Assembly (NCBI GenBank): GCA_025774805.1 | Contig: JALGZR010000068.1 | Coordinates: forward strand, 1 to 21,106 | Reading direction: 5' to 3' | From: a bacterium | Lineage (GTDB): Bacteria; ARS69 | Length of the DNA: 21,106 bases | In this document: positions 1-10,470 of the stretch, piece by piece | Layout of the letters: each line of letters begins with the position of its first letter | Numbering within the stretch: the first letter of the stretch is position 1 | Translations under genes and position numbers: made by a program | The notes under the pieces: generated by a model | Databases searched by the model: none | What the model was told of the DNA's origin: nothing | Seen by the model: only the letters and a program-made list of their open reading frames with translations

Positions 1-108
1 TTTCGCCCGAGGCGGGGCCGTAGCCCCGTCGCAGGGCGGAAGCCTCGCAGCGACGAAGCCAGGCGCGGCTTTGCCGCTGCCGCAGCAGAGGCTGGTGAGA
101 TATGCAGG
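1..108 (-). mobile_element. MITE-like repeat, copy A (partial, runs off the left edge)
   Basis: Read on the minus strand from position 108, this segment matches the left part of the complete copy at 8380-8553. By hand I count about 99 of 108 identical positions with no gaps. It begins with the same terminal repeat (CCTGCATATCTCACCAGC...) and is followed outward by CTAG at 109-112. It keeps both internal hairpins: GCGGC-TTT-GCCGC at 65-77, and a GGGGC/GCCCC stem at 14-27 whose minus-strand loop is UACG. No open reading frame is evident. The other terminus should lie before position 1. The TAG stop of the neighbouring dikinase gene is inside the flanking CTAG. Non-autonomous mobile repeat is an inference from repetition and structure. 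Confidence 0.8.
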
Positions 109-3021
<2,913 letters not shown>

Positions 3022-3104
3022 GTTCAAACCTCCCGCTCCTGTAAAGACCACAGCGACGGACACTTGGGAGCCCTTCCCCGCGCTCGTCGTTTCCTCGGAG
3101 AACC

Positions 3105-5124: not shown

Positions 5125-8100
5125 ATGACGACCCCGGACAGGATCGAGACGCCGCCTCCGGAGAGCGGGAAACCTCCCGGCGCGGCCCGCGCCCTCGCCT
5201 TCGCTGTGGGAGGAGCCGCCGCCGGTGCCGGTTGGCTCGTCGGAGCGGAGGGCATCGAGCGCGCGTTCGGCCGGGCGCCGGGAGTGGCCGCCACGTTCGC
5301 CGGGGCGGTGGCGGTCGCGGTGGCGGTCGGCTTCGGGTGGAAGTCCCGTAGACGGGGTCCGCGGCCCGCTCCCGTCCGGGAGGCGGGGGGCTGGCTCGTG
5401 GCCCTGGGCGTGGTCACACTCGCCATCGGGGGATCGGTTCGCTGGATCGAGCCGGTCCTCGGGTGGGCCGGCGCCTCGACGGACGCGGGTCCGCTGGTGA
5501 CGACCCTGGCCCGCCTCCTGGTGGGAGGCGTCGTCCTCCTCCCGGTGGGCTTCGCGATCGGAGCCGGCTCGAGCGCCTTGCTGCGGGCGGTGTCCTCGGA
5601 AGCGGGGGCCGCGTCCTCCGCCGTCGGCGGGGGGGTCGCCGGGGCCGGTCTGGGGGCGGTTCTCGCCCACGGCGCGAATCTCCGCGGAGTGCTCGACCCC
5701 ACCCCGATCGGAATTGCCGCGGGGGTCTTGCTGATCGTCCTCGGAGCGGTCCTCCGTCGGGTGAGGGCGAACACCGGGGCGGACGGGGTGTCGGACGCGA
5801 GTTCGGACGTCGCGGGTGTGGGGGAGACCGCTCCCGGAGCGCCGGTCCGGGAAGCCGCGCGCACCCCCCTCTTCGGGTGGGTGGCGGCCGGGCTCGGAGC
5901 CGGATTCCTGGGCGCGGTGGCCGCCTATCTCCCCGGACGCTGCCTGATCCCCGCGTTCGGCAACGAGCTGCCCGGGATGCCCGTGGTCCCGCTCCTCCAC
6001 GCCGCGGGAATCGCGGTCGGTGGGCTGTTGGCGACCCTCGTCGTGAGGTCCCTTCCGCGAAGGGTGGGACCCGGGAGTGTCGGCGGCGCTCTGGTGCTGG
6101 GAGCGGCCGCCCTCCTCGTCGGGCCGGGTCGATACGATGGCCTGCCCTCCCGCTTCGTCGAGAGCACGGCCGAGGCGGCGACCCACGACGCCGTCGTCCT
6201 CGAGGCGATTCGAATCGCCACACCGGTGGTCACGCCCGTCGCACTCTTCGTCGGAGCCGCGATCGCCCTGCTCGCCGCCGGGCTCTCGCGGGCGGAGTCC
6301 GCCTGGTCCGGCGCGGCCCGATGGATCGTCGGGGCGGGGCTCCTCGGGGCGGCGCTCGGAGTCGGCGTGCCGCGCTTCGCGATCCCCGGGCTCGGCCTGT
6401 TTCCCCTCGTGCGCGCGACCGGAGTCCTTGTCGCCGGATTCGGCGCGCTCTCTCTCCTGCGGGGAGGCGCCATCTCTCCGGTGCGGGTCGGGTTCGCGTT
6501 TCTATCGCTCGCCGTGATCGTCCTCGGCGCGCATCGGCTCCCGCCCCCGGACCGCGACGCGGTCCTGGTCGATCGCGACCTCCTCTCGGCCCTCTCCCCG
6601 GCGCGGCAGGTTCAGAAGATGTGGCGGGTCTTCGACGAGGACGGGCCGAGGGACTCGCACACCCTTCTCAAGCGCGGTCATCGCCGGCGGCTGCTCGTGA
6701 ACGGGCGCTTCGAGATGGGGGACGTGAAGGGCATCAAGAGTCAGGGAATGCTGACCCACCTCCCGCTCCTGTTGCATCCCGCTCCGGCCCGGGCTCTCGT
6801 GCTCGGCTCGGGAAACGGGCACGCGCTGGCGGCGGCCCTCGCGCACCCGATCGAGCGACTCGACTGCTTCGAGACGGGACGGGTCCCCCCGAGGGCCACC
6901 GCCCGTTTCGGGCCCCGCTCGGAGAGCGCCCTCCGGGATCCCCGGATCCACTTCCGTCTCGGGGACGAGGTCGACCTTCTCGCGCGATCCGGGGCCGGGT
7001 ACGACGTCATCGCCGGTCAGATCTCGGGCACGTGGACGGAGAGGATGGCGAGGGCGACTTCCCGGGAGTTCCTGGAGCTCGTGCGCGGAAAGCTCGGCGA
7101 GGAGGGCGTCTACTGCCAGTGGATCCCCGACTCGGCGCTGACGAAGAGAGGGTTCCAGATCCTTCTGGCCACCTTCCGGTCGGTCTTTCCGCGGACCGAG
7201 ATCTGGGCCGGACAGGGGGGGGACGTGCTGCTGCTGGCCAAGAAGGCCGACGTGCCCCACGACTTCGCGCGCGTGCTCGAGACCTATCGCGACCCGAACG
7301 CGAGGGCGGCTCTGCGACGGGCGTGGCTCGAGGATCCCCCCACGCTCCTGTCGCAGTACCTCGTGGGCGACGCCGCGGTCCGCCGCATCTCGGTGGGCTT
7401 CCCGATCCACACGATCCGCGATCCGCGTCTCGATCGGGAGGAGGCGGCGAGACGGCGAACCGACCCGATCGTGGACCCGGTCCCCGGACTTGCCGCCGTT
7501 CGCGATGACGTTCTGAGCGCGTTCGCGAGCACTCCGGGAGGGGACTTCGCGGTCGCGGTCCGGAACGCGATCGAGGCCCGCGACCTCGAGCGAGAGGGTC
7601 TCGAACGGGAGCACGCCTTCCAGAACCACGAGGCGACGGAAGTCTATCGGAAGGGAATCCGGCTGAATCCGCAGGACGGTGCGCTGCGCCGGGCTCTGGC
7701 CAGCCTACGCACCCGGATGGGCATCGAGAGCGCCGCCCATCGATCCGCCGTGACCGCGGCCCACGGGTACATCCGCGAGGCCATCGAGGTCGACTCGACC
7801 TATGCGGACGGGTTCGCCAACCTCGGCATGGTCCTGCTCATGACGAAGTCGCACCAGTACGCGCGGTCGGTGACCGGCCAGGCGATCCGGCTCGAGCCCG
7901 AGAACGAGCTGTTCCACATGCAGATGGGGCGCATCTGGAAGCATTGGGGCTACTACGACAAGGCGCTCCCCTGGTACGAGAAGGCGATGGAGCTCAACCC
8001 CCTCAACGTGACGGCGGCCATGGCCTGGCTCGACACCCAGCTCGCGCTCGACGGCGAGTTTGCGGACCTGGAGTGGGGAATCGCGTTCCTCGAGCCCTAC

Positions 8101-8379
8101 CGGGAGCTCGAGCCGGACAACCGAGAGCTCCATCGACGAATCGACCGCATGCAGGAGGCCCTCGACCGACAGATCCTCCCGCCCGAAGAGGACGAGTTGG
8201 AGAAGTCCCTGGCCGACCGTCTCACCGAGGCGGAGGAGGAGGACGAGGAGCCCGGGGAGGAGGGGGCGGACGAGGAACACGTACACTCGGCGGCGGACGG
8301 CCACGAGCACGGCGAGGCGGCGGGCGGCGAAGACGAACCAAACGAGCCGCCGGCCGCCGAGGAGACGAACGGCAGTTAA
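5125..8379 (+). CDS. Fused membrane / spermidine-synthase-like / TPR protein, probably not an active aminopropyltransferase
   Basis: The 1084-residue product has four parts. Residues 20-480 are a multi-pass hydrophobic region. Residues 500-725 resemble spermidine synthase, with a nucleotide-binding loop GSGNG at 561-565, then CFETG, then YDVIAGQISG from residue 626. Residues 828-1015 hold TPRs (for example FANLGMVLLMTKSHQYA and YDKALPWYEKAMELNP). Residues 1016-1084 are very acidic, with histidines at 1052, 1054, 1060 and 1062. In spermidine synthases an acidic residue normally lies six positions after the Tyr of YDVI; here it is Gln632, so classical aminopropyl transfer is doubtful, although an S-adenosyl-type ligand could still bind. 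GGAGG lies 6 nt before the ATG. The TAA stop is inside the TTAA that borders the repeat element. The true substrate is unknown. Confidence 0.82.
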   Translation: MTTPDRIETPPPESGKPPGAARALAFAVGGAAAGAGWLVGAEGIERAFGRAPGVAATFAGAVAVAVAVGFGWKSRRRGPRPAPVREAGGWLVALGVVTLAIGGSVRWIEPVLGWAGASTDAGPLVTTLARLLVGGVVLLPVGFAIGAGSSALLRAVSSEAGAASSAVGGGVAGAGLGAVLAHGANLRGVLDPTPIGIAAGVLLIVLGAVLRRVRANTGADGVSDASSDVAGVGETAPGAPVREAARTPLFGWVAAGLGAGFLGAVAAYLPGRCLIPAFGNELPGMPVVPLLHAAGIAVGGLLATLVVRSLPRRVGPGSVGGALVLGAAALLVGPGRYDGLPSRFVESTAEAATHDAVVLEAIRIATPVVTPVALFVGAAIALLAAGLSRAESAWSGAARWIVGAGLLGAALGVGVPRFAIPGLGLFPLVRATGVLVAGFGALSLLRGGAISPVRVGFAFLSLAVIVLGAHRLPPPDRDAVLVDRDLLSALSPARQVQKMWRVFDEDGPRDSHTLLKRGHRRRLLVNGRFEMGDVKGIKSQGMLTHLPLLLHPAPARALVLGSGNGHALAAALAHPIERLDCFETGRVPPRATARFGPRSESALRDPRIHFRLGDEVDLLARSGAGYDVIAGQISGTWTERMARATSREFLELVRGKLGEEGVYCQWIPDSALTKRGFQILLATFRSVFPRTEIWAGQGGDVLLLAKKADVPHDFARVLETYRDPNARAALRRAWLEDPPTLLSQYLVGDAAVRRISVGFPIHTIRDPRLDREEAARRRTDPIVDPVPGLAAVRDDVLSAFASTPGGDFAVAVRNAIEARDLEREGLEREHAFQNHEATEVYRKGIRLNPQDGALRRALASLRTRMGIESAAHRSAVTAAHGYIREAIEVDSTYADGFANLGMVLLMTKSHQYARSVTGQAIRLEPENELFHMQMGRIWKHWGYYDKALPWYEKAMELNPLNVTAAMAWLDTQLALDGEFADLEWGIAFLEPYRELEPDNRELHRRIDRMQEALDRQILPPEEDELEKSLADRLTEAEEEDEEPGEEGADEEHVHSAADGHEHGEAAGGEDEPNEPPAAEETNGS

Positions 8380-8410
8380 CCCGCATATCCCACCAGCCTC
8401 TACTGCGGCG

Positions 8411-8423
8411 GCGGCAAAGCCGC
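8411..8423. other. Internal hairpin 1 of the repeat element
   Basis: GCGGC-AAA-GCCGC is a perfect 5-bp stem with a 3-nt loop. The same hairpin occurs in copy A at 65-77 (GCGGC-TTT-GCCGC on the plus strand). Conservation in both copies suggests that structure matters. Confidence 0.6.
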
Positions 8424-8450
8424 GCCTGGCTTCGTCGCTGCGGCGCTCCC

Positions 8451-8483
8451 GCCCTGCGACGGGGCTACGGCCCCGTCTCGGGC
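8451..8483. terminator. Internal hairpin 2 of the repeat element; candidate bidirectional terminator
   Basis: GACGGGGC at 8458-8465 pairs with GCCCCGTC at 8470-8477 around the loop TACG, giving an 8-bp stem with the exceptionally stable C(UACG)G tetraloop on the plus-strand RNA. An outer stem GCCC (8451-8454) with GGGC (8480-8483) extends it. It lies between two convergent genes, where a bidirectional terminator would be useful. There is no U-tract on either side, so intrinsic termination is uncertain. Copy A keeps the stem and loop at 11-30, with one G-U pair. Confidence 0.4.
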
Positions 8484-8553
8484 GGAAGCACCCCATCTCC
8501 TCGCCAGCCACGACCATCCGCAGCCTCGCGACGAGCCTGGTGAGATATGCGGG

Positions 8554-10470
8554 TTAATCCCCCTTCCCGTTGAGCCTGGCGATCGCCTCCCGCAGACGTG
8601 CGCGGTCCCCGCGCGAGACCTTCGGAATTGCCCCCTTCCAGTAGTCGCGGGCCTTGCCGGGGTTCCCCTCGCGGACGTCGCAGAGGCCGAGGTTCACGTG
8701 CGCCTCGACGTCCCGCGGCGCCACGGAGAGCACGGCCCGGTACCCCTCCCGGGCTTCCGGAATCCATCCGAGCGTCAGGCAGAGGTTGGCGTAACGGACC
8801 GCCCGCCGCACGGCGGCCCCGGTCGGGCGGGGCGCGAGCCGGCGGTGCAGCGGCCCGGTGAGGGACACCAGGGCGTCACCGGCGTGGGGGGCCGGCCCCC
8901 GGTCCTCGGCCAGGATCGCGGTCCACGCGTCGGAGCCGGGACGGTGCGAGGAATCGATCCGGATCTCGGCCCGGGGGATCGCGGGTTCTTCGCCGTCGGC
9001 GCCGCGCCAGAGGAGAAGGGCCGCTTCGGGAGACAGGCAGGCCGTCTCCCAGTTCCCGGAGCGGAGAAGAGCCCGGAGAAACGCCGCGCTGCCTTTGGCC
9101 GAGTGCTCGAGGAGCAGTACTTCCAGGTTCCACGAGGAGCGCATCCGCCGCCAGGCGGCGGGATCCTCGTGCGCCTCCAGGAATCGACCGAACCACTCCG
9201 GTCCCGCGACCTCGAGACGCCCGTCGATAAATGCCTTCCGGGTCGGATCTCGCCACGTGACGTAGCCCCCGAAGTCCAGATCGTGGAAGAGCGGGCCGGC
9301 CGCCCCCGAGCGATCGAGGGCGGCGAGGCACGTCTCGGGAAAGAGCCCCGGGGTCACGCCGAGCCCGCGATCCCGATGCAGTCCGAGGAGCCAAGGGGAG
9401 GATCCGGCGAGCACGGCGAGCGCGACCAGAATCGCGACCCCGACCGGCGCGAGGGAGAGCCGCCGGAGAGCGCGCGCCCGGCCGATCCCCTCGGAGAGGT
9501 TCACCGCGAGAACCGGAGCGGCGACCCAGGCGAACAGCGGGATGTTGCGTCGCGCCAGGAGCGCCAGAGCGAGAAAGGGAAGGACGGGCAGGAGACGGAG
9601 CAGAGCGCTGCGTCGTCGGCCGACGAAGGACAGCGCGAAGAGAGCCAGGAAGATCGCCGGGATGCGGAGAAACGGATCCCCCGGAGTCTCCAAGGGGCTC
9701 ACGAACTCGAGGATCCGGGAGAACGCCTCGTGCCCGCGATCGATGCGCTGCCAGAGCGTGAATGGGAACGTCCACGCGGCGAGGCCGTACGGATTCAGGA
9801 GCAGGGCGAGCGCCGACACGGCACCGGCAAGACCGAGATCCCGGGCGGCCCGCTCACCTCCGGTGCCCGGGGCGTCGGGTAGAGGTCGCGGCGGTCCCCG
9901 CTCGAGCCGCGTGAGAACCGCGTACATCAGCGTCGTCGCGGGTCCCAGGAAGGCGAGCGCGTGAAGGTTGACCCAGAGGACGGTGATCACGGGGAGAGAG
10001 ATCGCCGAGCGTCGCTTCCCCCGTCGGACGCGGTGGATCGCGAGGAGCGTGGCCGACAGGGCGACGTAGGTGAAGATCTCGGGGCGGGCGAGCGTCCGCT
10101 CGGCCGAGGTGAGAACGGCCAGTGATGCGGCGGCCCCGGCGGCACCCGCACCCGCGCCCGCCGCCCGCGCCGCGGCCACGACGAGCCCCGCCACTCCGGC
10201 GAACGCGAGCGCTTTGAACAGGACGACTCCGTCCGGCCCGGCCCAACTCCAGAGCCCGGCGAGAAGCACGTCCGTCAGCCACTGAAGGTCGATCCAGGGG
10301 CTGTCTTCCCGCGTAAAGGTGAGGAAATCGGTTCTCGGAACCGTACGGTCCGCGAGGATCCGGCGGCCGGCGGACAGGTGCCACCAGAGATCGGGGGCGA
10401 CGACCGGGTGGAGGGAGACGGCGAGAGCCAGAAACGCCGCCGCCGCCCCCTGCACACGCGCCGCCATCAC
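8554..10470 (-). CDS. GT-C-like polytopic membrane protein with short C-terminal TPR tail
   Basis: The 638-residue product opens with a hydrophobic segment and then DLWWHLSAGRRIL and PWIDLQWLTDV at about residues 27-70. I recognise this signature from uncharacterised GT-C-like membrane proteins. Further helices continue to about residue 360. A soluble domain follows, with FGGYVTWRDPTRKAFIDGRLEV at about 393-420, a conserved block of the same family. One or two TPRs lie at about 555-625 (REGYRAVLSVAPRDVEAHVNLG). A role in transferring sugars from lipid-linked donors is possible but unproven. Translation may start at GTG 10470 or ATG 10467; AGAAG just upstream is a weak ribosome site. The dehydrogenase gene ends only 6 bp upstream, so the two are co-transcribed. 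The TAA stop lies in the TTAA border of the repeat element. Confidence 0.78.
   Translation of the reverse strand: MMAARVQGAAAAFLALAVSLHPVVAPDLWWHLSAGRRILADRTVPRTDFLTFTREDSPWIDLQWLTDVLLAGLWSWAGPDGVVLFKALAFAGVAGLVVAAARAAGAGAGAAGAAASLAVLTSAERTLARPEIFTYVALSATLLAIHRVRRGKRRSAISLPVITVLWVNLHALAFLGPATTLMYAVLTRLERGPPRPLPDAPGTGGERAARDLGLAGAVSALALLLNPYGLAAWTFPFTLWQRIDRGHEAFSRILEFVSPLETPGDPFLRIPAIFLALFALSFVGRRRSALLRLLPVLPFLALALLARRNIPLFAWVAAPVLAVNLSEGIGRARALRRLSLAPVGVAILVALAVLAGSSPWLLGLHRDRGLGVTPGLFPETCLAALDRSGAAGPLFHDLDFGGYVTWRDPTRKAFIDGRLEVAGPEWFGRFLEAHEDPAAWRRMRSSWNLEVLLLEHSAKGSAAFLRALLRSGNWETACLSPEAALLLWRGADGEEPAIPRAEIRIDSSHRPGSDAWTAILAEDRGPAPHAGDALVSLTGPLHRRLAPRPTGAAVRRAVRYANLCLTLGWIPEAREGYRAVLSVAPRDVEAHVNLGLCDVREGNPGKARDYWKGAIPKVSRGDRARLREAIARLNGKGD

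Follow-up and report, generated by a model that had tools for sequence, protein, structure and literature searches.

The two convergent genes at the centre of this analysis are separated by a 174-bp element in the window, by which we mean the whole 21,106-nucleotide stretch analysed here (the entire contig C272; the host genome comprises 5.1 Mb in 284 contigs). This element is very probably a MITE that was mobilised in trans by an IS1380-type transposase and inserted at a YTAR site, duplicating a stop codon shared by both genes, with selection shaping the occurrence of its relatives at stop codons. The features of the locus are:

5125..8379, plus strand: plus gene, a membrane protein that has TPR repeats and a spermine-synthase-like domain; the left TTAA holds its stop
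8376..8379, no strand: left target copy TTAA, in which 8377-8379 is the TAA that ends the plus gene
8380..8553, plus strand: MITE copy of 174 bp with no evidence of coding, oriented with the CTACTGCGG subterminal box to the left
8380..8400, plus strand: left terminal inverted repeat, CCCGCATATCCCACCAGCCTC
8401..8532, plus strand: G+C-rich interior with subterminal boxes CTACTGCGG (left) and CTCGCGACGA (right)
8533..8553, minus strand: right terminal inverted repeat, CCCGCATATCTCACCAGGCTC (minus-strand reading), identical to the left repeat at 19 of 21 positions
8554..8557, no strand: right target copy TTAA, in which 8556-8554 is the TAA that ends the minus gene
8554..10470, minus strand: minus gene, predicted to encode a membrane protein and matching TPR weakly; the right TTAA holds its stop

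The locus is built as the preliminary description had it: a non-coding element with 21-bp inverted termini, bordered on both sides by TTAA copies that each hold the TAA stop of one convergent gene. No terminal repeat pair matching at 19 or more of 21 positions within 250 bp arose in 20 shuffled windows. The plus-gene protein ends in TNGS and the minus-gene protein in GKGD, each followed by its TAA stop inside a TTAA copy. When the element and one TTAA are taken out, the joined flanks read CGAACGGCAG-TTAA-TCCCCCTTCC. Short, devoid of a transposase and closed by terminal inverted repeats, the element has the characters of a bacterial MITE. It also has the many dispersed copies expected of one, hundreds in all, which confirms the earlier suggestion of a mobile repeat: at least 40 copies in the host genome scored at 89-97% identity to the window element, and the terminal core GCATATCYCACCAG matched 224 times there (112 + 112) with 0-1 mismatch, compared to 0 matches for the reversed control pattern. 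Our statistics on copies and sites cover 813 kb of host contigs (GC 67.5%), in which we counted about 91 full or partial elements, a density that may be slightly high because these contigs were picked for size and for having matches. The 42 copies with both ends measure 47-200 bp, mostly 173-174. In own copies, terminal positions 3, 6, 7 and 9 co-vary between the two ends, as if hairpin templating had made the ends of one copy alike or selection had favoured their pairing. The flanks of some copies (L045, L049 and L054) resemble another copy's end, with one CTAG in common, which suggests that they went into a target already duplicated by an earlier copy.

The window holds a second copy, missed in the preliminary description, at its very start:

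1..108, minus strand: second MITE copy, cut by the contig start
109..112, no strand: CTAG target copy beside the second MITE, its first three bases (CTA, 109-111) supplying the TAG stop of PPDK
109..3051, minus strand: PPDK gene, its TAG stop within the CTAG of the second MITE copy

The window contig thus starts inside a copy, and contigs of many other MAGs likewise end in these repeats; the MITE family therefore fragments assemblies.

Duplication of a TTAA target had been proposed from the window copy. The 4-bp flanks do behave as a duplication, matching on both sides in own copies, but tabulating them shows that TTAA is atypical. CTAG/CTAG flanks surround 15 of the 42 paired own copies, most others being one or two changes off, and 39 of roughly 70 in other genomes, whereas TTAA/TTAA was found once among the 42, at the window copy itself. 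Since the flanks of own copies are mainly CTAG, the target is not TTAA but YTAR, with CTAG strongly preferred, and the window copy represents a YTAR variant. CTAG is a rare word in this genome, with 201 sites in the 813 kb compared to 2442 expected from base composition (an about 12-fold depletion) and 664 under a maximal-order Markov model; element ends lie directly beside 57 of the 201. In the same contigs GATC and TCGA are over-represented while CTAG is depleted. Under-representation of CTAG has been described for bacterial genomes (PMC5493358).

We did not find a syntenic empty site of the window locus in four same-family genomes, where the two genes have their homologues on separate contigs, and a BLAST screen for empty sites returned mostly other elements or self-matches. 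A Thiodiazotropha MAG carries a related element (L207:4879-5122) with the ends CCCGGATATTTCACCCGG and a CTAG at either side, and for this one an empty site was found when its joined flanks were searched in 22 genomes of the genus. A sister genome (G098) aligns through the joint at 92% identity and has a single CTAG there; more distant genomes carry CTAG, CTAA or diverged versions. The CTAG at this joint is the TAG stop of a gene that, from its translation, probably encodes a methyl-accepting-chemotaxis (receptor)-like protein. This empty site belongs to another genus and to a related element whose ends differ from the common type at a few positions; with the matching flanks of own copies, it bears out target-site duplication. 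The genome of the L207 element also contains IS1380 remnants (L251 and L265) with similar ends.

The link to IS1380 extends to other MITE-bearing genomes. Of 20 such genomes, 12 had a match to PF13701, the IS1380-family transposase; the cut-off was passed in 10 of them, compared to 1 of the 14 control genomes. In 83 kb around IS1380 transposase genes, the YTAR-plus-end motif occurred 19 times with up to 5 mismatches, and the reversed control once. One complete IS1380 element (L245, 1261-2996) is flanked by CTAG on both sides and contains a 486-aa open frame, the transposase ORF. In L246, from a Ca. Eisenbacteria MAG that also bears these MITEs, the end CCCGCATTTCTCACCA adjoins a full-length transposase, the other side being cut off by what we read from its ORF as an IS3-like gene. 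All four transposases tested match the NCBIfam IS1380 model NF033539. IS1380-family IS (DDE; PF13701, NF033539) thus resemble the MITE in terminal inverted repeats and YTAR flanks, and the MITE ends match those of autonomous members. The MITE differs in lacking a transposase and has only about 16 terminal bases in common with them; its interior has no evident origin by internal deletion of an IS1380 element. An intact IS1380 transposase occurs alongside the MITEs in some other genomes but not in the incomplete host assembly. The single PF13701 match of the host is a 131-aa IS1380 remnant (L080) with no ends nearby, end pairs 0.5-3.5 kb apart in the host contigs enclose no evident transposon, and PF01609, PF13546 (IS701) and Y1_Tnp gave no match in the host genome. 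The fragmented host assembly thus shows no autonomous partner: it holds only this remnant, and the other transposase families tested gave no match. Matching ends and flanks of the YTAR type accompany IS1380 transposase genes in MITE-bearing genomes, so the likely mobiliser is a transposase of the IS1380 type, an identity that we infer for the window copy.

Two other kinds of machinery would also account for a palindromic repeat next to CTAG. The same target would be used by a MITE of the IS5 group, since IS5 duplicates Py-T-A-Pu, mostly CTAG (PMC5493358), and MITEPsy1 of Pseudomonas syringae, a small non-coding MITE related to ISPsy2, duplicates CTAG or YTAA (PMC3189936). However, MITEPsy1 is 100 nt long, has different ends (GGAAGGTCTGAAAAAGCC) and a different parent element, the DDE_Tnp_1 domain (PF01609) has no match in the host genome, and the ends that do match ours belong to IS1380 elements. 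With differing end sequences and neither ends nor a transposase of the IS5 type found, we disfavour this origin as very improbable. Mobilisation as a REP/BIME-like palindrome by a RAYT (Y1 HUH) enzyme, with CTAG as a guide tetranucleotide and no true duplication, would fit the palindromic structure, the very high copy number and the tetranucleotide at the foot. It would not fit a 174-bp element with terminal repeats in a host genome devoid of Y1_Tnp, nor the TTAA on both sides of the window copy and the single-CTAG empty site, which agree with duplication; we likewise disfavour it as highly improbable.

In the IS1380 reading, a DDE transposase of this family, acting in trans, would recognise ends of the type CC(C/T)GCATWTCTCACCAG, and the MITE would insert into a four-base YTAR site, usually CTAG, and duplicate it. 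The site in the window would have been a TTAA serving as the overlapping stop common to the two convergent genes, and its duplication would have supplied each gene with a complete stop, leaving both proteins unchanged. Both neighbours would keep their ends because the stop-bearing site is copied on insertion. That a duplicated stop-bearing tetramer preserves both stops had been anticipated, and the host genome contains a second case:

C63:30823-30996: second double-stop copy, CTAG/CTAG flanks; the flanking proteins end in KLRG and KRGG, each followed by its stop

Selection rather than targeting would yield the wider pattern at stops: insertions that break genes would be lost, and the CTAG sites that remain in this depleted genome lie largely at TAG stops and in spacers.

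The interior of the element is itself structured. Together with its flanks, the window element folds as a long hairpin that is far better than those of shuffled sequences (z of -8.4 for RNA and -7.1 for DNA). Elements measuring about 175 bp in different genomes, including MAGs labelled as other phyla, align with each other and have the boxes CTACTGCGG and CTCGCGACGA in common inside their ends; the consensus fold of this type comprises only the ends and a short subterminal stem. In a sister subfamily of about 240 bp the interior forms a long hairpin whose compensatory covariation is strong: double changes are seen at 32 of its 56 pairs. The underlying alignment (A2) contains twelve elements from several groups (L134, L136, L155, L163, L175, L183, L186, L212, L140, L164, L224 and L207). 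In its consensus hairpin 93% of cells pair, compared to about 40% when slid, and its covariation score is 0.436 versus 0.161 +/- 0.015 in shuffles, an effect size and not a probability, because the structure was derived from the same alignment and the rows are related. Candidate readings are that the interior is preserved by an RNA function, by DNA folding in transposition, or by hairpin-templated correction.

We compared insertions with unoccupied target sites, calling genes with a simple purpose-written Markov-model caller that recovered the evident window genes. None of 27 CTAG-flanked insertions lies inside a called gene, compared to 29 of 141 free CTAG sites. A stop falls within the flank at 10 of the 27 insertions and at 55 of the 141 unused sites (Fisher p=1.0). 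The safe-site strategy suggested in the preliminary description therefore survives in part: CTAG is depleted and largely found at stops and in spacers, and coding insertions are missing, but stops are not favoured over free CTAG. Because insertions are no commoner at stops than unused CTAG sites are, a strategy aimed at stops is unsupported; in our reading, the availability of CTAG sets the association with stops. Convergent context is somewhat different, occurring at 9 of 27 insertions versus 16 of 112 free non-coding CTAG sites (p=0.028). Both stops were restored in two insertions, the window copy (TTAA) and the C63 copy, compared to 0 unoccupied double-stop YTAR sites in the 813 kb (p=0.011). 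In other genomes, ORFs of at least 100 codons end on both sides of 7 of 62 insertions versus 14 of 382 free CTAG sites (p=0.017), by an ORF-only criterion that admits spurious antisense ORFs; the plus ORF at L207, for instance, appears to be antisense to a PAS-type gene, and Pfam backed only some of the remaining cases. The bias towards convergent and double-stop sites is weak, with p values of about 0.01-0.03 on very small counts.

These three comparisons are what one would expect if something beyond CTAG itself, for example transcription or supercoiling, directed the machinery to translation stops or convergent gene ends. We consider this distinctly unlikely: enrichment at stops as such is absent, the counts are tiny and partly inflated by antisense ORFs, and the same bias is expected from selection against operon-splitting, promoter and coding insertions. 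Selection against harmful insertions can explain the mild convergent bias. Copies might also be retained for their usefulness, acting behind genes as bidirectional transcription terminators or as hairpins at mRNA ends, which is compatible with mobilisation by IS1380. The strong hairpin, the many copies at stops or just downstream of them and the covarying interior of the 240-bp subfamily speak for such a role. It is nevertheless rather unlikely, as stops are not enriched beyond CTAG availability, the hairpin has no T-run after it, and Rfam at the gathering threshold gave no match in the 14 element-bearing loci searched. Copies are oriented at random with respect to gene direction (14 sense, 11 antisense), which also argues against it, though a palindrome could act both ways. 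The account of an IS1380-mobilised MITE whose surviving sites reflect selection is the one we favour.

Matching ends occur far beyond the host. An exact search with CTAGCCYGCATNTCTCACCAG in GTDB genomes returned at least 115 stretches, and among the matches listed the MAGs are labelled Gammaproteobacteria, Deltaproteobacteria, Acidobacteria, Holophagae, Eisenbacteria, Planctomycetes, Verrucomicrobia, Nitrospira, Myxococcales, Alphaproteobacteria and Latescibacterota; many matches lie on short contigs, where binning errors are possible, and several on contigs of 90-150 kb. The matches in other genomes are again MITEs, many of 126-264 bp and mostly with CTAG/CTAG flanks. Matching ends were absent from viral contigs, and plasmids and phages gave no convincing match. 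In a genome of the host's family (G002), an element at L122:1487-1679 resembles these MITEs in length and interior, but its ends (GCCGCGTTTCGTGGCAGGCTCGTCGCGA) differ, and CTACAAGTAG comes after it.

Long palindromic intergenic repeats of high copy number also include ERIC and BIME, which have other ends and targets and are limited to particular bacterial groups. Unlike these, the ends of the window MITE occur in genomes labelled as many phyla. The piggyBac elements and MITEs of eukaryotes likewise have ends that commonly start with CCC and a 4-bp YTAR-like duplication, but their target is almost exclusively TTAA, whereas that of the bacterial MITE family is mainly CTAG. IS1380 serves as an outgroup for piggyBac, whose duplication is mostly TTAA (PMC10813416). 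It is a serious possibility, although we hold it tentatively, that one palindromic-MITE superfamily with the same ends, a CTAG target and a compensated hairpin has spread through many phyla on IS1380-type transposases, with the rare CTAG as built-in safe sites that include split shared stops.

We found no description of the end sequence in the open-access literature searched; the family would thus be a very widespread MITE type, linked to IS1380 transposases, that this literature has not described before. It would represent a near-harmless mobile element, the target of which is almost purged from coding sequence and kept largely at stops and in spacers, and the duplication of which rebuilds a stop, even for two genes together. 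Its copies provide a natural insertion set for asking whether target choice or selection lies behind the sites at which elements survive, and the covarying hairpin poses the question of why the non-coding core of a parasite is conserved.
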